Shown: piece after piece, positions 4,175 to 41,355 of the stretch | How positions within the stretch are numbered: the first letter of the stretch is position 1 | Layout of the letters: every line of letters begins with the position of its first letter | Assembly: GCA_947626825.1 (NCBI GenBank) | Contig: CANQTM010000013.1 | Span: forward strand, 1 to 41,355 | Source: an uncultured Bacilli bacterium | GTDB lineage: Bacteria > Bacillota_I > Bacilli_A > RFN20 > CAG-631 | Direction: 5' to 3' | Length of the DNA stretch: 41,355 nt | The notes under the pieces: generated by a model | What the model was told of the DNA's origin: nothing | The model's database searches: none | Seen by the model: only the letters and a program-made list of their open reading frames with translations | Program-made: the position numbers and the translations under genes

Positions 4175-6853
4175 ATGAAATATTTAACAAGCAATGAAAT
4201 AAGAACAATCTGGCTTAACTTTTTTAAGAATAAAGGTCATCATATTGAAGAAGGTGCATCATTAATTCCACTTAATGATCCAACATTATTATGGATTAAT
4301 GCTGGTGTTGCTGCATTAAAAAAATATTTTGATGGTAGCATTATTCCAACTAATCCACGAATAACTAATGTGCAAAAAGCAATTAGAACAAATGATATTG
4401 AAAATGTTGGCCATACAGCAAGACATCATACTTTTTTTGAAATGATGGGAAATTTTTCTATTGGTGATTATTTTAAAAATGAAGCTATTGAGTTTGCCTT
4501 TGAATTATTAACAAGTGATAAATATTTTGCTATTCCATTAGATAAATTATATATAACTTATTTTCCAAAAGATTTAGACACTTATAACAAATGGATATCA
4601 CTAGGTGTTTTAAAAGAACATATGATTCCTTGTAATGATAATTTTTGGGAAATAGGGGAAGGACCTTGTGGACCAGATAGTGAAATCTTTTTTGATAGAG
4701 GGGAAGAATATGATCCAAAACATATAGGACTTGACTTATTAAAAAATGATATTGAAAATGATCGTTATATAGAAATTTGGAACATAGTTTTTTCACAATT
4801 TAATTCAAAACCTGGTGTAAAAAGAGAAAATTATCAAGAATTACCTCATAAGAATATTGATACTGGTGCTGGTCTTGAAAGATTTTGTTTAATAATGCAA
4901 AATGCTAAAACTAATTATGAAACAGATTTATTTTATCCAATAATTAAAGAATGTGAAAAAATTGCCAAATTTAAATATGAAGGAGAATATGAAGTTAGTT
5001 ATAAAATAATTGCAGATCATTTAAGAACTTGTACTTTTGCTTTAGCAGATGGGGCATCATTTTCAAATGAAGGTCGAGGTTATGTGTTAAGACGATTATT
5101 AAGAAGAGCTGTTCGTCATGGTCGTAAACTTGGCATTGAAAAAGAATTTTTAGCTCAACTTGTTGATGTTGTTATTGAGATAATGAAAGATTTTTATCCA
5201 TATTTAATAGATAAAAAAGATTTTATTAAAAATCAAATAACAAATGAAGAAAGAAAATTTTTAGATAAACTAGTTGATGGTGAAAAAATTTTAAATGAGC
5301 TATATGAAAAAAATCACGAATTAACTGGTGAAGATGCTTTTTTACTTTATGATACCTATGGCTATCCTTTTGAAATAACTTTAGAATTTGCTAATGAACA
5401 TAATATAACAATAGATAAACAAGCTTTTGATGAAGCTATGGCTAAACAAAAAGAATTAGCAAGATCATCACGTGATAATAAAAATTCTATGAAACAACAA
5501 AATGAAGCCTATATGGATTTTAAAGAAACATCAATTTTTATGGGCTATGATAATTTAAGAATTGATAATGTAAAAATTATTGGAATTTTTAATGAAAATG
5601 ATAATTTAGGTATCGTTACAGATAAAACTGCATTTTATGCTGAAATGGGTGGCGAAGTTGGTGATAAAGGTGTTATATTTAATGATAACTTTGTTGGAAA
5701 TGTTATCGATTGTCAAAAATTGCCAAATGGTCAACACATGATGATTACTAAAGTTGTTTATGGAAATATAAAAATAAATGATTTAGTGAATGTTGAAGTT
5801 AATGATGAAATAAGAAAACAAATTGAGGCCAATCATTCAGCTACTCATTTATTAGATCAAGCATTAAAAGATGTTTTGGGCAATCATGTTTTTCAACATG
5901 GTTCTTTAGTTAATGAAAATAATATACGTTTTGATTTTAATCATTTTGAAAATGTAAAAACTGATGATTTATTAAAAATTGAAAAAATTGTTAAAGAAAA
6001 AATTCAAAATAAATTAAATGTTAGAACTTATGAATTACCTATTGAAGATGCCAAAAAAGAAGGTTGTATAGCTGTTTTTGGAGAAAAATATGGTAATATT
6101 GTTAGAATAGTTAATATTGATAATTATTCAAAAGAATTTTGTGGTGGTTGTCATGTTAAAAATAGTCAAGATATTTCTGATTTTGCTATTTGTAATATTG
6201 AATCAAAAGGTTCTGGAATATATCGTATTGAGGCAGTAACAAAAGATAATATAATTGAAAAATTAATAAATCACAATCAAACATTATTTACTGAATATGA
6301 TACAATGCTTACAAAATATAATTTACTTTTAGAAAATGCTAAAAAATTAAATTTAAAAATAAATGATGTAAATATAAAATATCAAAAAGAAAATTCATAT
6401 CAAATGATTTTAAATGTTAAAATTGCTTTAGAAAATTTAAAAGAGGCAATAAAAAGTTTAGATAAACAAATTAAAGCCTTAGAAACAAGTAAAGAAATAT
6501 CAAATTTTGATTATGATAATGTGACAATTGAAACAATAAAAGATATTAAAACTATTTTTGTTAAATTAACTTTAGATGATGGTGCTTTAGTAAAACAAAT
6601 TGCTGATAATCTACAAAATAAATATAATGATTGTTTGATATTCGTAATGTCAGTAAGTAATGATAAAGTATTATTTGTTGCAAAAGCAAATGATGAAATA
6701 AATAAAAAAGGAATTATGTGTGGTAATTTAGTTAAGAAGGCTAGCATGCTTTGTGGTGGTAATGGAGGAGGTCGTCCTGACTTTGCTCAAGCAGGTGGTA
6801 AAGATATCACAAAAGTTGATGAAGTTTTTAAATTAGTTAAGGAGTCAATCTAA
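4175..6853 (+). CDS. alaS: Alanine-tRNA ligase
   Basis: Class II synthetase that charges tRNA-Ala. Class II motif 2 region HHTFFEMMGNFSIGDYF lies near residues 84-100 and GAGLERF near 232. The editing domain has H554xxxH558 and C656xxxH660 (CGGCH, where many homologues have CGGTH), so the zinc ligands are kept. The C-terminal domain ends GGNGGGRPDFAQAGG. At 892 residues it is full length. The ATG at 4175 follows AGGAGGT (4159-4165). The longer reading from 4130 would start inside the T-box hairpin and is rejected. The T-box leader confirms the amino acid, and ruvX follows with a one-base overlap. Confidence 0.97.
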   Translation: MKYLTSNEIRTIWLNFFKNKGHHIEEGASLIPLNDPTLLWINAGVAALKKYFDGSIIPTNPRITNVQKAIRTNDIENVGHTARHHTFFEMMGNFSIGDYFKNEAIEFAFELLTSDKYFAIPLDKLYITYFPKDLDTYNKWISLGVLKEHMIPCNDNFWEIGEGPCGPDSEIFFDRGEEYDPKHIGLDLLKNDIENDRYIEIWNIVFSQFNSKPGVKRENYQELPHKNIDTGAGLERFCLIMQNAKTNYETDLFYPIIKECEKIAKFKYEGEYEVSYKIIADHLRTCTFALADGASFSNEGRGYVLRRLLRRAVRHGRKLGIEKEFLAQLVDVVIEIMKDFYPYLIDKKDFIKNQITNEERKFLDKLVDGEKILNELYEKNHELTGEDAFLLYDTYGYPFEITLEFANEHNITIDKQAFDEAMAKQKELARSSRDNKNSMKQQNEAYMDFKETSIFMGYDNLRIDNVKIIGIFNENDNLGIVTDKTAFYAEMGGEVGDKGVIFNDNFVGNVIDCQKLPNGQHMMITKVVYGNIKINDLVNVEVNDEIRKQIEANHSATHLLDQALKDVLGNHVFQHGSLVNENNIRFDFNHFENVKTDDLLKIEKIVKEKIQNKLNVRTYELPIEDAKKEGCIAVFGEKYGNIVRIVNIDNYSKEFCGGCHVKNSQDISDFAICNIESKGSGIYRIEAVTKDNIIEKLINHNQTLFTEYDTMLTKYNLLLENAKKLNLKINDVNIKYQKENSYQMILNVKIALENLKEAIKSLDKQIKALETSKEISNFDYDNVTIETIKDIKTIFVKLTLDDGALVKQIADNLQNKYNDCLIFVMSVSNDKVLFVAKANDEINKKGIMCGNLVKKASMLCGGNGGGRPDFAQAGGKDITKVDEVFKLVKESI

Positions 6854-7266
6854 TGAGAGCACTTGGACTTGATATTGGGAGTGTTACTGTTGGTGTTGCT
6901 TTATCTGATTCATTAAAGATGATTGCATCATCATATTGTGTTATTCGTTATGAAAAAGAAGATGACGAGCTATTTTTAAAAATTGTTAAAATTATTCAAG
7001 AACAAGAAGTCGATGAAGTTGTTGTTGGTATGCCATATCATATGAATGGCGATATGTCTATTGGTTGTGAAAGAACAAGAAGATTTGAAAAGAAGATTCA
7101 AGAATTAATAGACATTAAAATTATTGAAATTGATGAACGTATGTCAACAATTAGTGCTAATAATGCCTTGTTAACATTTGATGTTTCACGCAAAAAAAGA
7201 AAACAAGTTGTTGATAAAGTAGCGGCAACTGTTATTTTACAAACATATCTTGATAAGAAAAGATAA
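6853..7266 (+). CDS. ruvX: YqgF/RuvX-type nuclease (Holliday junction resolvase fold)
   Basis: RNase H-fold protein of the YqgF/RuvX family, implicated in 5'-end maturation of pre-16S rRNA and in Holliday junction resolution. The fold motifs are visible: GLDIGSVTVGVALSD at residues 4-18 with the first catalytic Asp, VVGMPYHMNG in the middle, DERMSTISAN, and VDKVAATVILQ near the C-terminus with the last acidic residue. The length of 137 residues is typical. The start overlaps the alaS stop by one base. The alaS-ruvX pair is normal in Bacillota, although yrzL, often between them, is absent. Confidence 0.92.
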   Translation: MRALGLDIGSVTVGVALSDSLKMIASSYCVIRYEKEDDELFLKIVKIIQEQEVDEVVVGMPYHMNGDMSIGCERTRRFEKKIQELIDIKIIEIDERMSTISANNALLTFDVSRKKRKQVVDKVAATVILQTYLDKKR

Positions 7267-29638: not shown

Positions 29639-31825
29639 ATGGAAGATATTATTGTAAAAAGTATTAGTGAAGATTTAAAAATAAGTGAAAAACAAACTAA
29701 AGCTGTTTTAGATATGTTAGAACAAGGTAATACAATACCATTTATTGCTAGATATAGAAAAGAAGCTACTGGTGGTCTTGAAGAAGTAACAATTAATGAA
29801 ATACAAAAAGTTTATCAATATGAATGTGATTTAAAGGAACGTAAAGATACTGTAATGCGTTTAATTGATGAAAAAGGATTATTGACTGATGAACTTAAAA
29901 ATCAAATTTTAGCAGCTAAAAAACTTGTTGAAGTAGAAGATCTATATAGACCTTATAAAGAAAAGAAGAAAACAAAAGCTACAGAAGCTGTGGCAATGGG
30001 ATTACAAGGCCTTGCTGATTACATTATGGCACAAGCAGAAGATAGTGATGTATCTAAAGAGGCTTTAAATTATTTAAATGACAAAGTTACAACTGTTGAA
30101 TTTGCTATTACAAATGCTTTATACATCATTGCAGAAAAAATATCTGATGATGCTGATCTTAGAAAGTGGATAAGAAACTATATATTTACAACAGGTAATT
30201 TACAAACAAAAATCAAAAAAGATGCTGAAAAATTAGATCCTACAAAAATATATGAAACCTATTATGAATATAAAGAACCATTAAGTGCAATTAAACCACA
30301 TAGATTGCTTGCAATGAATCGTGGGGAAAAAGAAAAAATATTAACATCTTCATTTGTCTATGATGAAGAAAAGATTCTAGAACACATTTCTAAGGCTTAT
30401 TTACATTGTAAAAATCAAGAAATAGTAGATATATACCAAATTTGTATAAAAGACGCTTACAAGCGTTTAATTGGCCCTTCAGTTGAAAGAGAAATATATT
30501 CTGGTATGTTTGATGATGCATGTGATGTGGCAATAAATATATTTGGTAGAAATGCCAAACAATTATTACTTCAAGCACCTATAAAAAATAAGATGGTTTT
30601 AGGTGTTGACCCAGGATATAGAACAGGATGTAAACTAGCTGTTGTAGACTCAACTGGAAAATTTATTTATAAAGATAAAATGTATCCTCATAATTCTGAA
30701 AAAGAATGGAATGAAGCTGTTAAATTAGTAAGAGATGTTTGTCAAAAATATAAAATTGATATAATTGCTATTGGAAACGGAACTGCATCTAGAGAAACTG
30801 AAAAACTTATAGTTGAAGCAATTAGTATTTTTGATAATAAAATTCAATATGCTTTAGTATCTGAAGCTGGTGCATCTGTATATTCAGCTAGTGAAGAAGC
30901 AAGAAAAGAATTTCCAGACTTTCATGTTGAAGAAAGAAGCGCAGTATCAATTGCAAGAAGAATAATTGATCCACTTGCAGAACTTGTTAAAATTGATCCA
31001 AAATCAATTGGTGTAGGACAATATCAACATGATGTTAATCAAAAGAAATTAGATGATGAATTAACATTTGTTGTTACATCTGCAGTTAATACTGTAGGTG
31101 TAGATTTAAACACTGCGTCAAGTTCACTTCTTAAATATGTTTCAGGTTTAAATGGCTTTGTTGCAAATAACATTGTTAAATATCGTGACGAGAATGGTAC
31201 ATTTAAATCAAGAAATGAATTATTAAAAGTAAGTAGATTAAATGATCAAATTTATGAACAAGCTGCAGGATTTTTAAGAATAAAAGATGGAATCAATCCA
31301 TTAGATGCTACAGGAATACATCCTGAAAGTTATGAAATTGCTACAAAATTAATGAAAGATTACAAAATTGATTTTGATGATCTTGGAACAGAAATGGTTG
31401 AAATAAAATTAAAACTTCAAAAATTTGACATCAATAAATTTGTAAAAGATTGTAATTCAGATAAATATACTGTTGAAGATGTAATTAAAAACTTAAAAGC
31501 ACCTTCATTGGATCCACGTGATGCATTTGACAAACCTATTTTAAAAAGTGATGTAATTCATTTTGAAGATTTGCAAGTTGGTGACGAACTTGAAGGTACA
31601 GTAAGAAATCTTGTTGATTTTGGAGCATTTATTGATTTAGGTATTGCAGATAAAGATGGTCATAAAATCGATGGTTTAGTACATATTTCAAAGATTACAA
31701 CTAAATATATTAAACATCCAATTGATGTTTTACAAATTGGACAAATTGTTAAAGTATGGATTTTATCTGTTGATCAAGTAAAGAGAAGAATCCAATTAAC
31801 AATGATAGCACCAAATAAAGAATAA
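29639..31825 (+). CDS. tex: Tex-family S1 RNA-binding transcription accessory protein
   Basis: 728 residues, full length. The N-terminal helical Tex domain includes TIPFIARYRKEATGGLEEV near residue 32. The YqgF-like RNase H-fold domain starts GVDPGYRTGCKLAVVD near 322. Helix-hairpin-helix motifs (VDLNTASSSLLKYVSGL, FKSRNELLKVSRL) lie at about 485-545, and a C-terminal S1 domain (GDELEGTVRNLVDFGAFIDLG) at about 643-722. It binds nucleic acid and interacts with the transcription machinery; the exact role varies between species. GGAG precedes the ATG by 11 bases. It is the last + strand gene before the strand switch. Confidence 0.95.
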   Translation: MEDIIVKSISEDLKISEKQTKAVLDMLEQGNTIPFIARYRKEATGGLEEVTINEIQKVYQYECDLKERKDTVMRLIDEKGLLTDELKNQILAAKKLVEVEDLYRPYKEKKKTKATEAVAMGLQGLADYIMAQAEDSDVSKEALNYLNDKVTTVEFAITNALYIIAEKISDDADLRKWIRNYIFTTGNLQTKIKKDAEKLDPTKIYETYYEYKEPLSAIKPHRLLAMNRGEKEKILTSSFVYDEEKILEHISKAYLHCKNQEIVDIYQICIKDAYKRLIGPSVEREIYSGMFDDACDVAINIFGRNAKQLLLQAPIKNKMVLGVDPGYRTGCKLAVVDSTGKFIYKDKMYPHNSEKEWNEAVKLVRDVCQKYKIDIIAIGNGTASRETEKLIVEAISIFDNKIQYALVSEAGASVYSASEEARKEFPDFHVEERSAVSIARRIIDPLAELVKIDPKSIGVGQYQHDVNQKKLDDELTFVVTSAVNTVGVDLNTASSSLLKYVSGLNGFVANNIVKYRDENGTFKSRNELLKVSRLNDQIYEQAAGFLRIKDGINPLDATGIHPESYEIATKLMKDYKIDFDDLGTEMVEIKLKLQKFDINKFVKDCNSDKYTVEDVIKNLKAPSLDPRDAFDKPILKSDVIHFEDLQVGDELEGTVRNLVDFGAFIDLGIADKDGHKIDGLVHISKITTKYIKHPIDVLQIGQIVKVWILSVDQVKRRIQLTMIAPNKE

Positions 31826-31890
31826 ATGTATTTAATTAACATTATACACATTATGTACATAATGAACATTTAATATATAATGTATTATAA

Positions 31891-31938
31891 AGACATAATA
31901 TACATAAAATATTTTGAAAAATATTATGTCTTTTTTTA
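31891..31938 (+). terminator. Terminator after tex
   Basis: AGACATAATAT (31891-31901) pairs perfectly with ATATTATGTCT (31921-31931), and the loop can form an inner AAAATATTTT stem. It is followed by a T-run. The left arm and loop contain the 13-mer ACATAATATACAT, also present in the dif-like site. Confidence 0.75.
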
Positions 31939-32010
31939 TTAAAATATAAATTTAAATTGTAAATTTTATGCTTAAAATTCAAAAAAATGCCATTAAATCC
32001 TAATTTATGA

Positions 32011-32050
32011 AAAGAAACATAATAATTAAATATATGTTTCTTTTTTTTTT
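32011..32050 (+). terminator. Terminator-like hairpin with no gene upstream
   Basis: AAAGAAACATA (32011-32021) pairs with TATGTTTCTTT (32033-32043), and T continues to 32050. There is no ORF between it and the tex terminator. It may be a backup terminator or the end of an unseen small RNA. Confidence 0.5.
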
Positions 32051-32668
32051 ATTAAAATTAAACATTATGATTATAAAGTAATTATTAATTAATTAATAAT
32101 AAGAAAAGATCAATTGTTTTTTAAAAAGCAGATTTATTTTGATAAAAGAATCTGTATCAAATATAAATATTAAAAATAATTAAATATAGAATTATGTAAA
32201 TTTAATTTGGTTCCATAGTAGAAAATACGATAAATAGCTTTATAAGTAAATTTTATGTAAAAAAAGAATTATAAGAATATTTTATAATTAATTTATTTAT
32301 GCACATAAAATGCTTTAAATATTTTATGTACATTAAATACTTAAAGTACAATAAAAATATATTGTACATAAATAATTATTTTATATAAATCGATAAAATA
32401 TTTTAAAAAGTATATATAAATTATTATTTGATCATTTATAGAAAAATGTTATGTAATTTAAAATCAAACTTTTTTTTAATTTAAGGAAGAGAAGGAATTA
32501 AACATCATTATTAAAAATATCTGATATCCAAAAATATTATTAATAATAAATATATATTAAAAATTTTATATAAAATTATTAAATAATGTAAAAAGCTAAA
32601 TTATAAAAAAAAAAAATTAACCAAATTTAATTGATTAATTATATATTTTTTATAATATTTTCAAATGT

Positions 32669-32696
32669 ATTTTACATAATATACATTATGCGAAGT
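32669..32696. other. dif: Putative dif site (chromosome dimer resolution)
   Basis: The 28-mer matches the reverse complement of the B. subtilis dif site, as I remember it, at 23 of 28 positions. The XerD-side arm (32669-32679, containing TTTACATAA) agrees at 10 of 11, the central hexamer TATACA at 5 of 6, and the XerC-side arm (32686-32696, ending GCGAAGT) at 8 of 11. It lies between convergent gene blocks, exactly where dif is expected, and a Xer recombinase gene is about 5 kb away. No alignment was run. Confidence 0.72.
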
Positions 32697-32706
32697 AAAT
32701 TACACA

Positions 32707-34029
32707 CTAAAATTTAAGCCTTAAACCTTTAGGATAATGATTCTTTAATTGATTATTAACATGTTTCACCCAACCTAAAGGTATTTTTTTATATGTAACA
32801 ATTTTGTAACCACTATTACCTTCTTTAGAAATAGTTAAACCTTTTAAATATTCTCTTGTCTCGTCTTCATTTAATTCAATATACATTTCTTGAGGCATTT
32901 TAAAATATTTAGAAAACGCATGTGCAGGTTCAAAATGATTATTTGATGTTGTTCCTATTTCCATTCCATAACGATTAATTTTAACATCGTATAAATCAAA
33001 TTTAGTAAAATTAGCAAATGAATAATTATTTTTGAATAAAATAATATCATTACTATTAATATCCACCTTAATATCATTTAAAAATTTTAAAACATCTTTT
33101 GATGGTTTAGATGTTTTTATTTCTTTATAATACGAATTTAAAGGTGTCTCTTCTCTCTTCTTTTTTAATATGAAAATAACTTGTCCTTCACCTTCAAATT
33201 TATGTGGATAAAGTCTTAGTCCACCTTTGATGTTAATTGTGTCATTGTAAAGTTTATTTAAACTAATTGGCACAATTTCAATGTCAGGATGATTGTTTAA
33301 AAAGAATTCTATTACTTCTTCATTCTCTTGTATTGAAAAAGAACATGTTGAATATAGAATTTCACCTTCTGGTGCAAGCATTTCATAAGCATCTTCAATC
33401 AATGATTTTTGTATACTTTGACAATTATATACTTTTTCTATTGACCACTCTTCTTCAGCTTGTTTATTTTTTCTAAACATTGCAGATCCTGAACATGGAG
33501 CATCAATAATAATTTTATTAAAATAATTTTTAAAATGTTTTTTATAATGTTTTGAATCATCATTTAGAACAATTACATTGTCAAAACCATATTTTTCAAT
33601 ATTAGCTGACAATATTTTACTTCTTATCTCATGAATATCATTTGCAATTAATAGACCAGTGTTTTCCAATTTATTTAAAATATTAAATGATTTTCCTCCA
33701 GGAGCTGCACACATATCAAGTACTTTCTCATCTTTTTGAATGTTTAATAATGATACTGCCATCATAGATGAAGGCTCTTGAATATAAAAAGCACCAGCAA
33801 TAAATTCTAGTGATTTACCAAATTCAATCTCTTCTTTATCATATATATATGCATTTTCAATATGAGGATGTTTCTTTAAATTTATTGAATTATTAAAAAG
33901 ATCATTGATGCTTATGTTATAGTTATTATTTAACATAAAACAATGAATTTCAGGCATTTTCCTTGAATTAATAATTAGTTCTGTCTCGTCTTTGCTTAAA
34001 AAAGTTTCTAAATGTTCTTTAAAATTCAT
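32707..34029 (-). CDS. RsmF/NOL1-NOP2-Sun family rRNA (cytosine-C5) methyltransferase
   Basis: About 440 residues. SAM binding site DMCAAPGGKS lies near residue 105. The two catalytic-region cysteines are in DAPCSGSAMF (about C179) and YSTCSFSIQENE (about C229). The C-terminal third, ending GWVKHVNNQLKNHYPKGLRLKF (start GWVKHVNN), is the PUA-like tail of RsmF-type enzymes. It probably methylates a cytosine of 16S rRNA. There are two candidate starts, ATG at 34047 and at 34029, neither with a ribosome site. I prefer 34029 because MNFKEHLETFL fits the family start and a -10-like TACAAT (34053-34048, - strand) would start transcription near 34041. First - strand gene beyond the terminus gap. Confidence 0.88.
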   Translation of the reverse strand: MNFKEHLETFLSKDETELIINSRKMPEIHCFMLNNNYNISINDLFNNSINLKKHPHIENAYIYDKEEIEFGKSLEFIAGAFYIQEPSSMMAVSLLNIQKDEKVLDMCAAPGGKSFNILNKLENTGLLIANDIHEIRSKILSANIEKYGFDNVIVLNDDSKHYKKHFKNYFNKIIIDAPCSGSAMFRKNKQAEEEWSIEKVYNCQSIQKSLIEDAYEMLAPEGEILYSTCSFSIQENEEVIEFFLNNHPDIEIVPISLNKLYNDTINIKGGLRLYPHKFEGEGQVIFILKKKREETPLNSYYKEIKTSKPSKDVLKFLNDIKVDINSNDIILFKNNYSFANFTKFDLYDVKINRYGMEIGTTSNNHFEPAHAFSKYFKMPQEMYIELNEDETREYLKGLTISKEGNSGYKIVTYKKIPLGWVKHVNNQLKNHYPKGLRLKF

Positions 34030-34202
34030 TTTTAATTTTAAGTACATATTGTATTTAAAATATATAAATTACAAATAATACATTATGTACATATTGCACA
34101 TTATGTTTTTTTATATAAATTATGTATTTATTTCATAAATTAAAATACAATATCATCCTTTCTTCAACTAAATTATACTATATTAATTTTTAACAGTAAA
34201 AT

Positions 34203-34235: not shown

Positions 34236-34997
34236 TTAATTATTTTTTATTAGTTTTTTCTTTATTAAATTACTTAATAATTCTATTACAAGTAATATTA
34301 GTATTGCAATTGTTCCCCATGCTAATATACCTGCCATATTTACATCATTTGCTTGAACATATTTTAATGATGTACCTATCCCATAAACTGTTGCTCCACT
34401 TAATACTTCTGACATTATTTCAACTTTAAATGCTAATGCAAAACTTGATGCAATTCCTACCAAAATATAGTTAAATGCTAATGGTATTTTGATTTTAATA
34501 ACATTTAATAGATTATTTCCCCCATCTAAAGAAATTGCATCATTTATATTTTTTGGTATGTTTGTAATTCCACCAACAACAGCTTCATATAATATAGGAA
34601 ATGCTACTAAAATTACAACAAATATTGGTGCATTAGCAAAGCCTATCATTACTATAAATAAAAATAATAAGCATGCTGTTGGTATTGTTTTTAGTGTAGT
34701 AATAAATGGTTTAAATATTAAATAAAAATTATTAAATAAACCAGCTATAGTACCAAAAAATAATGCTAACATAATCGATATTAAATAACCAACTAACATT
34801 TTCCATAAACTATTTAAAATAGATAAATAAGTTGACTTAGTTATTAATAAATTTCTTAAATAGTTAAATGTCTCTATTGGTCCTGGAAATACTAAAACTT
34901 TTTCTCCAATAATTTCAGCAATTACAAACCAAATTAATATTAGTAACAAAAATCCAATAATACTAAATGTTATTTTTTTGTATTTAGTAAATATCAT
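34236..34997 (-). CDS. NitT/TauT-type ABC importer permease (SsuC/ThiX-like)
   Basis: 253 residues with about six TM segments. VFPGPIETFNYLRNLL near residue 35 is typical of SsuC/TauC-like permeases. The ATPase-contact loop includes ISLDGGNNLLNVIKIKIPLA near 158, and VGIASSFALAFKVEIMSEVLSG (core ALAFKVEIMSEVL) is the family C-terminal signature. It overlaps the binding-protein gene by 14 bases, so the two form an operon. The usual third gene, an SsuB-like ATPase, is absent on both sides; a shared ATPase elsewhere is likely. Substrate unknown; thiamine precursors, sulfonates and other small organics are all possible. Confidence 0.87.
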   Translation of the reverse strand: MIFTKYKKITFSIIGFLLLILIWFVIAEIIGEKVLVFPGPIETFNYLRNLLITKSTYLSILNSLWKMLVGYLISIMLALFFGTIAGLFNNFYLIFKPFITTLKTIPTACLLFLFIVMIGFANAPIFVVILVAFPILYEAVVGGITNIPKNINDAISLDGGNNLLNVIKIKIPLAFNYILVGIASSFALAFKVEIMSEVLSGATVYGIGTSLKYVQANDVNMAGILAWGTIAILILLVIELLSNLIKKKLIKNN

Positions 34998-35895
34998 CTT
35001 TTGAAATTGTTTGATTAAATAATTGTAAGAAATTACTTATAGCTGTAAAGTTATCTTTTGCTTCTTTAAATCCTAAACCAATACTATTATTTTTATTTAA
35101 ACAAGTAATAATTGTTTCAGCATCAATTCCTATTTTAGTATTAAATGCTTCAGGTGTCATATCTTCATGACCTTCATAGATCTTTTGAGAATTATTTAAT
35201 AATTCATTAATTTCTTCTTTTGTTTCTTTTAAGAATTCTTTTCTTGCACTTTTACTTACAGTATTTTTTATGAAAATACCAGCTTGAATCATTTCATTTC
35301 CACCTGATTTAGCTTTATATTCACTTTGAATATCTTTGTAAATAGAAGCACTTGTATTTTGTAATAAAGCTTTAGATAAAACTGGTTCAGCTATAAATAC
35401 ATATTTAACATCTTCAGTTCCATTTTTCTTTGAAATTAAACATTTTGCTGCATCTTGAACATTGTTTACATATGAAATATTAGTGTAATCAGTACCATAT
35501 AAATATTCAAATACTTTTTGTGGTGTTTGACCCATACCAAATAAAACAATGTTGTCATCTTTATCCATATTGTTATTATCATCAATACCAGTACTTGCAA
35601 TATAGAAATTTCCAAATGTTATATTTGCTGCTAATTTATATGGAGCACCACTTTCAATTGCTTTAACTCCAGATACAGTATCAATTACAATTACATCACT
35701 GCCATTATTAGTCATGCTACTAACAATGTTAGCAGGTGTTGAATTAGTTTGAAATTCAACATCATCTACCCTTTCATAAAATGCAATTGCAGGAGCCCCT
35801 GTTGGACATAAAATTGTTAGATCATCACCATCAACATCATTACAACTTGCAATACTTAATAATATAGGCAAAAGCATTAAAATTCTTTTTTTCAT
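34984..35895 (-). CDS. Solute-binding lipoprotein of the NitT/TauT-type importer
   Basis: 303 residues. The signal peptide ends SIASC (lipidated C18). LTILCPTGAPAIAFYE, then TPANIVSSMTNNGSDVIVIDTVSG, follows the NMT1/SsuA-like pattern in which the first strand and a Gly-Ala-Pro turn form the ligand pocket. The middle (VLFGMGQTPQKVFEYLYG) and YVFIAEPVLSKALLQ fit the second lobe. AAAGGA precedes the ATG. It is divergent from a Crp/Fnr regulator, with a TGTGA-N6-TCACA box between them. Confidence 0.83.
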   Translation of the reverse strand: MKKRILMLLPILLSIASCNDVDGDDLTILCPTGAPAIAFYERVDDVEFQTNSTPANIVSSMTNNGSDVIVIDTVSGVKAIESGAPYKLAANITFGNFYIASTGIDDNNNMDKDDNIVLFGMGQTPQKVFEYLYGTDYTNISYVNNVQDAAKCLISKKNGTEDVKYVFIAEPVLSKALLQNTSASIYKDIQSEYKAKSGGNEMIQAGIFIKNTVSKSARKEFLKETKEEINELLNNSQKIYEGHEDMTPEAFNTKIGIDAETIITCLNKNNSIGLGFKEAKDNFTAISNFLQLFNQTISKDDIY

Positions 35896-35923
35896 TTTTT
35901 TTGTTCCTTTCTCTTTTTTTTAT

Positions 35924-35951
35924 ATCATAATTATAATATAATTATTTACAA
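35924..35951 (-). promoter_or_regulatory. Putative promoter of the binding-protein/permease operon
   Basis: On the - strand TTGTAA (35951-35946), a 16-base spacer, then TATGAT (35929-35924). The Crp-type box lies just upstream of the -35. Confidence 0.45.
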
Positions 35952-35956
35952 GAAAA

Positions 35957-35972
35957 TGTGATTTTAATCACA
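35957..35972. promoter_or_regulatory. Crp/Fnr-type operator, TGTGA-N6-TCACA
   Basis: TGTGATTTTAATCACA is a perfect inverted repeat identical to the classical CRP half-sites. It lies between the divergent importer operon and the Crp/Fnr-family gene, immediately before the latter's start codon and upstream of the importer's -35. The regulator probably controls both. Confidence 0.7.
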
Positions 35973-35981
35973 ATATATATT

Positions 35982-36557
35982 ATGAATGAACAAGAATTTA
36001 TTAAATATTTATTACAAAATGCTAATTTTATAAAAAAACATAACAAAGATGAAATCATTTTTAATGAAAATGACCTTTGCGAATATGTTTGCATTGTTAA
36101 AAATGGTGAAATATTAGTTTCTTCATATTCTTATAAAGGAAATGAAATAATATTTAAAAAAATAAAACCAATGTCTATGTTTGGACATTTATTAATTTTT
36201 GCTACTAACAATGTTTATAGAGGTATCATTATTAGTAAAACAAACTCAGAAATTGCTTATATAAATAAAAATTGTTTTTATAATTTAATTATTAAAGAAC
36301 CTTTTTTAAGTCAATATCTTGCTATTTTAAGTGATGATATTTTAATTTCAAAAGAAAAAACACGTGTCTTATCTTTTAATTCGACAAGTGATCGTTTATT
36401 ATATTTATTATCAATTCATCAAAGCCTTAAATTTGAATCAATTTCATCTTTAGCAAAAGATTTATCAATCACTAGAGAATCGCTTTCTAGAACGCTTAAA
36501 AGCCTTGAAAAACAAGAAATTATTAAAATAAAAAATAAAACTATTTATTTAAAATAA
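35982..36557 (+). CDS. Crp/Fnr-family transcriptional regulator
   Basis: 191 residues, the only + strand gene in the right-hand block. The N-terminal cNMP-binding-like barrel (about 10-110) includes CEYVCIVKNGEILVSSYS and MSMFGHLLIF. There are few Cys and no FNR iron-sulfur cysteine set. The C-terminal winged helix has ISSLAKDLSITRESLSRTLKSLE (core TRESLSRTL), the RE-R recognition pattern that reads TGTGA half-sites. The barrel lacks the usual RxA cAMP pocket, so the effector is unknown. The ATG at 35982 is chosen; the upstream GTG at 35958 is inside the operator. There is no clear ribosome site. It is short compared with most Crp proteins (about 210-230). Confidence 0.85.
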   Translation: MNEQEFIKYLLQNANFIKKHNKDEIIFNENDLCEYVCIVKNGEILVSSYSYKGNEIIFKKIKPMSMFGHLLIFATNNVYRGIIISKTNSEIAYINKNCFYNLIIKEPFLSQYLAILSDDILISKEKTRVLSFNSTSDRLLYLLSIHQSLKFESISSLAKDLSITRESLSRTLKSLEKQEIIKIKNKTIYLK

Positions 36558-36581
36558 TTTTATTTTCTAAATTGTTATTTT
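36551..36581. terminator. Possible bidirectional terminator between the regulator and deoB
   Basis: AAAATAA (36551-36557) pairs with TTATTTT (36575-36581), spanning the two convergent stop codons. The stem is all A/T, so it is weak. Confidence 0.35.
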
Positions 36582-37750
36582 AATTTATTTAATATTGATT
36601 TTCCAAGACCCGTGTTTGCAACATCAAAATTATCAGCAATTGTTGCAGCAAGTGTTGCAAAAGTATCTTCTTCATTTAAAATACCACATTCTTTAAAGGC
36701 CTTACTATAAATAAGTAGAGGTACTTTTTCTCTTGTATGGTCACTACCTTGCCATGTTGGGTCATTTCCATGATCAGCTGTGATAAACATAATATCTTGC
36801 TCATTTAATAATGTTTTAAATTTAGTAACATATTGATCAAATTTTTCTATAGCTTTGCCATAGCCAACTACATCTCTTCTATGACCATATTCCATATCAA
36901 AATCAACTAAATTGGCAAAACATAAACCAGTAAAATCTTCTTTCATTTTAGTTATTATTTTTTCACATCCATCATCATTTGAAACTATTTTATTACTTTC
37001 AGTTAGACCTTGTTCAGCAAAAATATCATATATTTTACCAATTGAGATAACACTATATCCTGCATCTTTTAAATAATCAAGTTCAGTTTTAGCAAATGGT
37101 TTTAATGCATAATCATGTCTTTTTGGTGTTCTTTTAAAGTTTTCAGAATTAGTACCAATAAATGGACGAGCAATGATTCTTCCTAATTTATATTTATCAT
37201 CAAGAGTCACTTCACGTGCTATTTCACACATTTTATATAATTGTTCAATTGGAATAACATCTTCATGAGCTGCAATTTGTAAAACAGAATCACTTGAAGT
37301 ATAAACAATAACAGCTCCTGTTTTTAAATGTTGTTCTCCTAATTGTTTAATTATTTCTGTTCCTGAAGCAGCAACATTACCAATTATTTTTCTTTGCCAT
37401 TTTTGTTCTAAAATATCAATTAATTCTTTAGGAAATCCTGTTTCTGTAAAAGTTTTAAAAGGTTTTTCTACTTTTAAACCCATTAATTCATAATGACCAG
37501 TTAATGTATCTTTACCATTTGATATTTCATTTAATGCTAAGGCATATGAATGATCTAATTTGCTATTACTTGGTGTAATATCACAAATCCTATCAATTCC
37601 TAGACTTCTAAGTTCTGGAACATTAAGATGCATTTTATCATCAATATGTTTAAAAGTATTTGATCCTTCATCTCCATATTTTTTAGCATCTTTTCCATGT
37701 CCAATTCCCATTGAATCACAAACAATTACAAAAATTCTTTTAAATCTCAT
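36575..37750 (-). CDS. deoB: Phosphopentomutase
   Basis: 391 residues. It interconverts (deoxy)ribose 1-phosphate and 5-phosphate, linking nucleoside breakdown to the pentose pathway. The alkaline phosphatase-superfamily metal motifs are present: VIVCDSMGIG near residue 9, the KDTLTGHYELMG segment with the phosphorylated Thr near 95, FITADHGNDPTWQGSDHTREKVPLL near the C-terminus (ADHGND and SDHTREK). The length is typical. It overlaps the Xer gene by 4 bases (ATGA). It fits the nucleic-acid salvage theme of the window. Confidence 0.95.
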   Translation of the reverse strand: MRFKRIFVIVCDSMGIGHGKDAKKYGDEGSNTFKHIDDKMHLNVPELRSLGIDRICDITPSNSKLDHSYALALNEISNGKDTLTGHYELMGLKVEKPFKTFTETGFPKELIDILEQKWQRKIIGNVAASGTEIIKQLGEQHLKTGAVIVYTSSDSVLQIAAHEDVIPIEQLYKMCEIAREVTLDDKYKLGRIIARPFIGTNSENFKRTPKRHDYALKPFAKTELDYLKDAGYSVISIGKIYDIFAEQGLTESNKIVSNDDGCEKIITKMKEDFTGLCFANLVDFDMEYGHRRDVVGYGKAIEKFDQYVTKFKTLLNEQDIMFITADHGNDPTWQGSDHTREKVPLLIYSKAFKECGILNEEDTFATLAATIADNFDVANTGLGKSILNKLK

Positions 37751-38646
37751 TTGTCATCTTCCTTTCTTAAGTTTAATGGATCTTGAAATTTCTTAAAATA
37801 ATCATCTTTTATTTTATTTTTAGAAATATTTAAATATATTTGTGTTGTTGAAATATCTTTATGTCCTAATAATTCTTGTACACTTCTAATATCAGCTCCA
37901 TTTTCTAACATATGTGTTGCAAAGCAATGTCTTAATGTATGTGGTGTAACTTTAAGTTTTATATCGGCCTTTTTGGCCGATTCACTAATTATATTATATA
38001 TCATTTGTCTTGACAGTGGTTTACCATTTTCATTGACAAATACATATTTACTTTCAAGTCCAAATAATATTTCATTTCTCACATTATTTGTATAATTATC
38101 TAAAGCTATTTTTAATAATTCACCAACAACAATTACTTTTTCTTTATTTCCTTTACCTATTACTCTAATATAGCCATCAGTAAAATTAATATCACTATAT
38201 GTTAAATTTACAAGTTCGGAAACTCTTAGTCCTGTAATATATAACATCATAATAATAACTTTATTTCTTTCACCTAGAATATTATTATCTTGAATCGCAA
38301 TCATTTTTTTTATATCTTCAAGTTTTATAATTCTTGGATATACTTTTTCATTTTTAATATGTTCAAGTCTATTAACATCCACATTTATAGATTTTTTATT
38401 AGCAATTTCATAATTATAAAATTCTTTTAATGCAGTCATTTTTCTATTGTAACTTTTATTTTTAAAATTATTTTTATTTAAATAATTATAAATATCTTCA
38501 TTAATTGCACTATTAAAATCTTTATTGATACTTGTTAGGTATTCATAAAATTTATTTAAATCATTGCCATAAGCTTCTAAAGTTTTATTTGATAAATTTC
38601 TAATGGCTAATAAGTCATTTAAAAAATATTTAATTTCCTGATTCAT
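37747..38646 (-). CDS. XerC/XerD-type tyrosine recombinase
   Basis: 299 residues. The N-terminal SAM-like core-binding domain covers about 1-90. The catalytic domain has the full set: R141 in TGLRVSEL, K165 in IGKGNKEK, H236 and R239 in HTLRHCFATHML, H262 in LLGHKDIS, and nucleophile Y271 in TQIYLNIS. Size and spacing fit chromosomal XerC/XerD rather than integrases. With the dif-like site about 5 kb away it is the obvious candidate for chromosome dimer resolution. No second xer gene is in the window. It overlaps dinB upstream (17 bases) and deoB downstream (4 bases), all in one operon. Confidence 0.9.
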   Translation of the reverse strand: MNQEIKYFLNDLLAIRNLSNKTLEAYGNDLNKFYEYLTSINKDFNSAINEDIYNYLNKNNFKNKSYNRKMTALKEFYNYEIANKKSINVDVNRLEHIKNEKVYPRIIKLEDIKKMIAIQDNNILGERNKVIIMMLYITGLRVSELVNLTYSDINFTDGYIRVIGKGNKEKVIVVGELLKIALDNYTNNVRNEILFGLESKYVFVNENGKPLSRQMIYNIISESAKKADIKLKVTPHTLRHCFATHMLENGADIRSVQELLGHKDISTTQIYLNISKNKIKDDYFKKFQDPLNLRKEDDK

Positions 38647-39799
38647 TTTTTATTGCATCCTTAGCTTTCATAAATATTTCTTTACCAGCCAAACCATTTA
38701 ATTTTCTAATTAAATCTGATGTTGTATCTTGAGCAATTATTTCTTTTGAAAATAAATCTAATTGTTTATGATATTGTTCTTTAAAGATTAAATTTGAAAC
38801 AGTTACTCCAACTAGTCTTATAACTTTAATTTCAAATTTATCATATAATTTTAATATTTCAATTAATATTTTATCATTATCATCTGTTGGATCAATAATT
38901 TGTTTTGATTTAGATTTTGAAATAAAATTTTGATCTTTTAATGTTAATGATATTGTATAACCTAACATATTTGCAGCCTTTAAACGCATTGAAACTTCAT
39001 CACAAAGCCATTTTAAATTTTCTTTAATTGTTTCATAGTCATTAGTATTTCTTTCTAAAGTGTGAGAGTTACCAATGCTTTTAGGTGGTTCATTATGTAT
39101 TGTTATTCTTTCAGCTATTTCACCTTTACATAAAGAAATTATATTATCATAAAAGCTACCTAATATTTCTTTTACTTTAATTGAATTTGAGTTAACTAAA
39201 TCACCTATTGTTTTTATACCAATTTCTATTAGTTTATTTGATGTTGCTTTACCAATTCCATATGTGTTTTCAATTTTTAAAGGCCATATAATATCTGGAA
39301 CATCTTTTTTCTTAATAATTGTTATTCCTAAAGGCTTTTTATAATCAGAACCCATTTTTGCTAAAAAACGACAATAGGAAACACCAATTGAACAAGGAAT
39401 ATGAATTTTTTCATATATTTCTTTTTGTAAATTTACAAAATATTGATATGGATCTTGACCTAAATATATATCAGTCATGTCAATATATGCTTCATCAATT
39501 GAAGCAACATCAACAATTTTATAACGACTTTTTAAAAAACTAAATATTTCATCACTAACTTTGGAATAATATTCATGGTCAACAGGTAAAAAAATGCCAT
39601 TTTTACATGTTTCTTTTGCAAGATAAATTGGCATAGTGGTATAAATTCCATCTTTTTTTGCTTCATAAGAGGCAGCAGAAACAATACTTCTATTTGAAGT
39701 ACCTCCAATAATTATTTTTTTTCCTTTTAATGATGGATCTCTTTTAACCTCACAACTGGCAAAGAAACAATTCATATCAATATGAACAATGACTGGCAT
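38630..39799 (-). CDS. dinB: DNA polymerase IV (Y-family, DinB)
   Basis: 389 residues. Error-prone translesion polymerase. HIDMNCFFASCE (residues 6-17) holds the first metal Asp and the steric-gate Phe; the usual second Asp (HIDMD) is Asn. VASIDEAYIDMTDIY near 100 holds the catalytic Asp-Glu pair. NTYGIGKATSNKLIEIGIKTIGDL is the thumb helix-hairpin-helix (core YGIGKATSNKL). QLDLF at residues 346-350 is a canonical sliding-clamp binding motif. It starts 1 base after the dCMP deaminase stop, so it is co-transcribed. Confidence 0.94.
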   Translation of the reverse strand: MPVIVHIDMNCFFASCEVKRDPSLKGKKIIIGGTSNRSIVSAASYEAKKDGIYTTMPIYLAKETCKNGIFLPVDHEYYSKVSDEIFSFLKSRYKIVDVASIDEAYIDMTDIYLGQDPYQYFVNLQKEIYEKIHIPCSIGVSYCRFLAKMGSDYKKPLGITIIKKKDVPDIIWPLKIENTYGIGKATSNKLIEIGIKTIGDLVNSNSIKVKEILGSFYDNIISLCKGEIAERITIHNEPPKSIGNSHTLERNTNDYETIKENLKWLCDEVSMRLKAANMLGYTISLTLKDQNFISKSKSKQIIDPTDDNDKILIEILKLYDKFEIKVIRLVGVTVSNLIFKEQYHKQLDLFSKEIIAQDTTSDLIRKLNGLAGKEIFMKAKDAIKNESGN

Positions 39800-40373: not shown

Positions 40374-41355
40374 TTAAACTATTTTTTTCTTTTTGATTAA
40401 GAAAATAACTAAAGTAATAATACCACCTAGTCCTACAGCACCTACTACACTACCACCAACTATTAAACCAACATTGGATTCTTTTTTAGGTAGTTTTTCT
40501 ATAGTTTCAGTTTCTAAAATAGTTCCACAGTCAAGACATTCTTTATGTTTACTTCCTTCACTTTCTTTTGTAGGTTCAACATCAATAATCCAATCACTAA
40601 TAGTATGATTTTTTAAAGATATTGGTTCAGTCTTAATTGTTTTATGACATCTTTCACATTCTGTGTGTCTACTACCTTCTTCTTTACATGTTGATTCTTT
40701 ATCAATAATCCAATCACTTTCTTTATGACCTAATGCTTTAATGATTGTATCTAATTCATTAATAACTACCTTATTTTCATTAAAGAATTTATTACAATCA
40801 TCACATGTGAAATATTTAATATTTCCATTTTCTTCACATGTTGCATCTTTAGATTGATGTTCAACAAAGTTATGTCCTTTAGCATCTTTTGTTTGAACTA
40901 TTTTAGTTGCAGTAAAATCTTTGCCATTTTGATATTCATTCCATTTTACTTTTGCAATAAATGTTGTTATTTCAACTTGTTCACAACTTTGTTCTTGTGT
41001 TATTTGGCTTGTAACAATTGCATCTTCTTCATGAGTATGGCTACTATTATGTTCACAAACAAAGTGAACTTTAGCAGTTGTACCATCATCACTCCATTCA
41101 AATCCTTTTTCATAATCATCACTTAATTTCCATGAATGAACTAAAGCATCTTTTGTTTGAATTACTTTTGTTGATGTATATTCTTGACCATTTAGATTAT
41201 ATTTAGCTGTATATGTAGTAATTTCAACTTGTTCACAATCTTGTTCTTGTGTTATTTGGCTTGTTATAATTGCTTTTTCTTCATGAATGTGGCTGCTATC
41301 ATGTTCACAAACAAAGTGAACTTTAGCAGTTGTGCCATCATCACTCCATTCAAAT
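40374..41355 (-). CDS. Repeat-containing surface protein, C-terminal part (start beyond window)
   Basis: Open on the - strand from the right edge to TAA at 40376-40374, giving about 326 residues without a start. An 84-residue unit appears twice (EWSDDGTTAKVHFVCEH, then SSHxHEE, TSQITQEQxCEQVEITT, QTKDA), at DNA period 252 bp. Three shorter units follow, each with Cys-rich pattern CxxC (TCDDCNKFF, ECERCHKTI, ECLDCGTIL) and WIID spacers. It ends with LPKKES, a Gly-rich TM segment (VGAVGLGGIITLVIFLI) and KKKKIV, a membrane anchor without an LPxTG motif. This module mix is common in gut Bacillota surface proteins and suggests adhesion. Confidence 0.8.
   Translation of the reverse strand, partial: FEWSDDGTTAKVHFVCEHDSSHIHEEKAIITSQITQEQDCEQVEITTYTAKYNLNGQEYTSTKVIQTKDALVHSWKLSDDYEKGFEWSDDGTTAKVHFVCEHNSSHTHEEDAIVTSQITQEQSCEQVEITTFIAKVKWNEYQNGKDFTATKIVQTKDAKGHNFVEHQSKDATCEENGNIKYFTCDDCNKFFNENKVVINELDTIIKALGHKESDWIIDKESTCKEEGSRHTECERCHKTIKTEPISLKNHTISDWIIDVEPTKESEGSKHKECLDCGTILETETIEKLPKKESNVGLIVGGSVVGAVGLGGIITLVIFLIKKKKIV

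Follow-up and report, generated by a model that had tools for sequence, protein, structure and literature searches.

A putative terminus dif site linked to xerD in an uncultured Bacilli bacterium and its order

The described systems closest to the locus reported here are XerCD/dif of Escherichia coli, which like this locus has a 28-bp site of two 11-bp arms around a 6-bp centre located in the terminus, and the dif of Bacillus subtilis (CodV, RipX). Two further systems, XerS/difSL of streptococci and lactococci and XerH/difH of epsilon-proteobacteria, use one recombinase, and its gene is linked to the site (PMC5357621, PMC2731167). Such linkage has been described as a trait of single-recombinase systems, the XerCD genes being scattered (PMC2731167, PMC5357621), and the gene reported near dif is xerC rather than xerD, which tends towards the origin (PMC3025954).

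We analysed a window of 41,355 nucleotides (the whole stretch of DNA examined) from an uncultured Bacilli bacterium, in which an initial annotation had placed a dif site at the likely replication terminus. The site is the 28-mer ATTTTACATAATATACATTATGCGAAGT, whose coordinates (Table 1) and letters are exact. From the comparisons described below, it appears very probable that this 28-mer is the chromosome's single terminus dif, at which XerC, XerD and FtsK would resolve dimers. XerC and XerD would each bind one arm and would be switched on by FtsK, the motor protein at the septum as it closes; they would then recombine two dif copies, converting chromosome dimers into monomers.

Sequence and uniqueness of the 28-mer

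When the 28-mer was aligned with the E. coli and B. subtilis dif letters given in PMC3025954, the initially annotated identity of 23 of 28 positions with B. subtilis dif was borne out, and 24 of 28 positions were identical to E. coli dif. Its arms show partial dyad symmetry, as in XerCD/dif. The outer XerC arm reads GCGCACC in E. coli and GCGAAGT in the window's site, whereas in comparison with B. subtilis dif the window's XerC arm TTATGCGAAGT is nearer to the E. coli type. Across the order this arm is nearly invariant, and the most variable inner positions of the relatives' sites fall in the central hexamer. Both arms were assigned by homology and are presumptive. The description of the site as probably undescribed holds for this organism but not for the type of site, which is textbook and found throughout the order; the organism is undescribed, but its dif is an ordinary one.

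Matches of 21 of 28 to B. subtilis dif arose by chance several times per AT-rich genome in simulations. At 22 or more of 28 there were about 0.6 per simulated order-3 genome, and at 23 or more none in 15 simulated genome-sized order-3 sequences, although a single, cruder order-1 simulation gave two. Because similar matches arise in simulated AT-rich DNA, the B. subtilis match taken alone is borderline to weak. The 24-of-28 match to E. coli dif was unequalled in the simulations.

The organism's own genome is a draft (87 contigs, 1.84 Mb, 95% complete). A search of its 1,840,610 bases with the exact 28-mer and with a degenerate 22-position pattern found no second site at three or fewer mismatches, and a reversed control pattern gave no match in the same draft. 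This search for further copies had been set beforehand as a refuting check; neither a second dif-like copy nor a better dif elsewhere came to light in the draft. Scored with a profile built from the relatives' sites, the window's site reached 39.5 bits, and the next-best scores, leaving out the dif site read backwards, were 0.8 bits in the window and 11.0 bits in 254 kb of other sampled DNA from the same genome.

Terminus position in the window and in relatives

The genes of the window converge on the AT-rich gap that holds the 28-mer, as initially annotated. To the left, the open reading frames from 128 to 31825 are all on the plus strand apart from short, overlapping antisense frames; to the right, those from 32707 onwards are on the minus strand but for one plus-strand gene of 199 amino acids (35958-36557), and a 90-amino-acid plus-strand frame at 40854-41126 is doubtful. 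The plus strand is G-richer on the left and C-richer on the right, as had been judged by eye (skew of about +0.1 to +0.3 and -0.09 to -0.26, respectively), and the GC skew crosses zero at 32-34 kb. The claim that dif sits at a skew minimum was mistaken, however, since the cumulative G-C curve peaks here and the site is at a maximum. About 8 of 20 other contigs of the same genome, sampled at their ends, also change skew sign between ends, so the local skew is weak evidence for a terminus here. Since the draft is in 87 contigs and others of them switch sign as well, it is the relatives that have to carry the terminus claim.

Table 1. Features of the window and of dif-like inverted pairs and repeats in related genomes
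Feature	Coordinates	Strand	Basis or remark
dif site, 28 bp (two 11-bp arms, 6-bp centre)	32669..32696	+	dif matches, uniqueness, order-wide conservation
Presumed XerD-binding arm ATTTTACATAA	32669..32679	+	Alignment with dif of E. coli and B. subtilis, reverse-complemented
Central hexamer TATACA	32680..32685	+	Register with E. coli dif
Presumed XerC-binding arm TTATGCGAAGT	32686..32696	+	Alignment with known dif
AT-rich gap between converging genes, holding dif	31826..32706	.	ORFs; skew zero crossing
Tex-like protein with S1 domain (Tex name presumed), final gene of rightward block	29639..31825	+	ORF; NCBIfam S1-domain matches
RsmF/NOL1-NOP2-sun-type rRNA methyltransferase, opens leftward block	32707..34047	-	ORF; NCBIfam
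ABC permease and substrate-binding protein genes (names presumed)	34236..35895	-	Same cluster in many relatives
deoB, phosphopentomutase, xerD partner and linkage marker	36575..37750	-	NCBIfam over cut-off; relatives
xerD-like tyrosine recombinase, 5 kb from dif	37747..38646	-	Pfam, NCBIfam, structure match
DinB/Y-family polymerase-like gene (name presumed), same conserved cluster	38630..39799	-	ORF; relatives
Inverted dif pair (L354), G068:C136	8708-8735; 8854-8881	-; +	
Inverted dif-like pair (L355), G147	6473-6500; 6600-6627	-; +	
XerD-arm inverted repeat (L356), G156	near 7017-7076		
XerD-arm inverted repeat (L357), G176	near 7017-7062		

Relatives place the site more firmly. Of the order's 147 genomes, 134 carry the degenerate form of dif, almost always as a single copy, whereas few genomes matched the reversed control. 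Between the window's genome and its congener G001 the 28-mer is identical at 27 of 28 positions and its left flank fails to align by eye, as expected of a protein-binding island. Three relatives carry dnaA and dif about half a chromosome apart: G121 (Bacilli bacterium UW_MP_BACIL2_1, the 1.48-Mb contig JAKVOO010000001.1; dnaA at 1,023,707, dif at 298,530, 48.9% apart), G079 (1,061,998 bases; 204,067 and 719,220, 48.5%) and G061 (one contig of about 2.1 Mb; 809,287 and 1,871,765, about 51%). In G079 the sampled skew changes sign at dnaA and dif only, and in G121 it switches at the same two places with one exception at 450 kb; in these two relatives, sampled across the chromosome, the site sits at the global skew switch. 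None of the refuting conditions set in the initial annotation was borne out, so far as each could be checked. Within 10 kb on each side of dif, genes converge and the skew switches at the site in 20 of 20 relatives. The location of dif opposite dnaA in three genomes and the global skew switch in two of them support the terminus reading.

Two other accounts of the 28-mer have to be set against a terminus dif. AT-rich DNA between convergent operons could have produced a chance resemblance, and both the simulated 21-of-28 matches and the skew switches of other contigs speak for this, but the uniqueness of the 28-mer at three mismatches, its retention across the order and the orthologous site opposite dnaA in single-contig relatives speak against it; on conservation and position we rejected a chance match, which is extremely improbable. 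The 28-mer could instead be the attachment site, or a remnant, of a mobile element that uses Xer rather than a chromosomal dif, and the degenerate core does have exact matches in 82 viral contigs, as it would in Xer-dependent elements. Integration would have left a direct pair of copies, however, and the genome has one; moreover, family members share the order of the conserved housekeeping genes that flank the site, and a mobile origin is very unlikely. Once its E. coli match, position and conservation are counted, the 28-mer lies far beyond chance, and we infer from the comparative evidence, and accept, that it is a dif in the terminus. Throughout this order of largely uncultured Bacilli the site would then mark the terminus reliably, allowing draft genomes to be oriented and their replichores to be assigned when no closed assembly exists.

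In the GC-rich genomes of the order (54-58% GC), genes still converge on dif, but the sign of the GC skew is reversed on both sides (L231, L239, L241, L242 and L374-L393). This reversed skew mostly holds over hundreds of kilobases in G083 and G098.

Linkage of xerD to dif and the recombination machinery

The Xer protein encoded in the window matches Pfam PF00589 (E=4.9e-48) and the E. coli XerD structure 1a0p (E=8.7e-44), and its best NCBIfam family is XerD (269.4 bits, short of the curated cut-off of 329.6). A second Xer gene lies on contig C4 beside a topoisomerase gene, with XerC as its best NCBIfam family (298.9 bits). Both proteins fall short of the equivalog cut-offs of NCBIfam, yet these families are the best of all for each. 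An FtsK gamma domain is encoded on contig C17 of the same genome (E=6.2e-29, over the cut-off), and with XerC-like and XerD-like genes the genome thus resembles E. coli in its machinery. The neighbourhoods of the two Xer genes are like those in B. subtilis, where the xerC-type gene lies near a topoisomerase gene and the xerD-type gene near deoB. In B. subtilis xerD is far from dif, whereas here it adjoins dif, a difference from E. coli as well.

This linkage extends across the order. Measured through deoB, the neighbour of xerD, which was searched for across the order, it was seen in every genome with deoB and dif on one contig: in 116 of 116, deoB starts between 69 and 10,440 bases away from dif and is directed towards it. 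In the first 20 relatives the DinB-Xer-DeoB cluster is within about 8.5 kb of dif, and xerD is beside dif at all 20 loci. Elsewhere in the class, xerD lies within 7 kb of dif in 11 of 20 genomes, always on the side of the presumed XerD arm. A search of the open-access literature on dif in Erysipelotrichia- or Acholeplasma-type bacteria gave no account of linkage to xerD.

A linked recombinase gene is what XerS/difSL and XerH/difH have in common with this locus, but those systems use one recombinase and two Xer proteins are encoded here. The window's protein is a weak match to XerS, with 107 bits where the cut-off is 267, and difSL is an atypical site of 31 bp with an 11-bp centre, unlike the canonical 28-bp site in the window. 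With two Xer proteins and a weak XerS match, a single-recombinase system of either type was rejected. Order-wide linkage of xerD to dif runs against the contrast drawn between linked single-recombinase and scattered XerCD genes (PMC2731167), and also against the reported tendency of xerD to lie near the origin (PMC3025954). The simple reading of the linkage is inherited synteny, and a functional reason behind it is possible. We suggest tentatively, and with rather less than even confidence, that xerD-dif is a conserved module despite the two recombinases, and that the orientation of dif within it is passed on unless an inverted second copy arises and takes the place of the first, as it would have done in the window's family.

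Among the candidate FtsK-guiding motifs tried, GAAGAAG was the only one with a strong bias towards dif (15 to 1 in the window). Codon use accounts for how often it occurs on the coding strand, however, and it was set aside. The others were too rare in the sampled DNA, in which no strand-biased guiding motif stood out beyond codon use.

Between dif and deoB, the window (34236-36557) holds ABC transporter genes and, transcribed the other way, the gene of a Crp-like regulator, and the pair of permease and substrate-binding genes is found beside dif again in many relatives.

Orientation of dif and wider occurrence

Of the 116 genomes, 112 share one orientation of dif relative to xerD-deoB. Four depart from it: that of the window, its family members G002 and G003, and G068. 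In G001, of the window's genus, dif and deoB are on separate contigs; we infer that its site is reversed too, because the Tex-like and RsmF neighbours are common to G001 and the window (the Tex-like gene has the same place in G003). In the genomes of families f5 and f6 in which EF-P was seen, EF-P lies across dif from xerD, and compared with these, both EF-P and the xerD-deoB cluster have changed sides relative to dif in the window's family. Since both swapped sides, it was probably the short site itself that was turned. Alternatively, the gene cluster may have been rearranged around a fixed dif, and gene order round dif does vary in the order, with EF-P on the xerD side in G011, for example. 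To account for the two swaps, however, turning one short site is the simplest event, and both dif orientations stand side by side in G068; we regard rearrangement of the cluster as unlikely, though less so than the alternatives to dif itself.

How a site might turn is suggested by G068, which carries two nearly identical, inverted copies of dif 118 bases apart. The flanks of the two copies are unlike, which argues against a fold-back assembly error, and the pair is plausibly an intermediate of dif reversal. If dif was duplicated in inverted form and the original was then lost, the reversed state in the window would result. A profile search of the window's gap found no relic of a second, inverted dif above background, the sole other match above 1 bit being the dif site read backwards. 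Turning the site should not affect dimer resolution, because both replichores converge on dif. An inversion specific to one family, with a candidate intermediate in another genome, would show how dif can turn round.

Several observations concern related arrangements. XerCD could flip the piece between the two inverted copies of G068. A second inverted dif-like pair, about 100 bases apart, occurs in G147, from another family of the class, and in two class members of one family (G156 and G176) the XerD-arm sequence forms an inverted repeat beside dif, a hairpin-like palindrome. In genome contigs (L028-L146), the degenerate dif core is found in many Proteobacteria as well as in Bacilli, and the variant is therefore no lineage marker. 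Many of the viral contigs with the exact core (L147-L228) are short (about 5-13 kb), sizes that would fit elements integrating through the host Xer.
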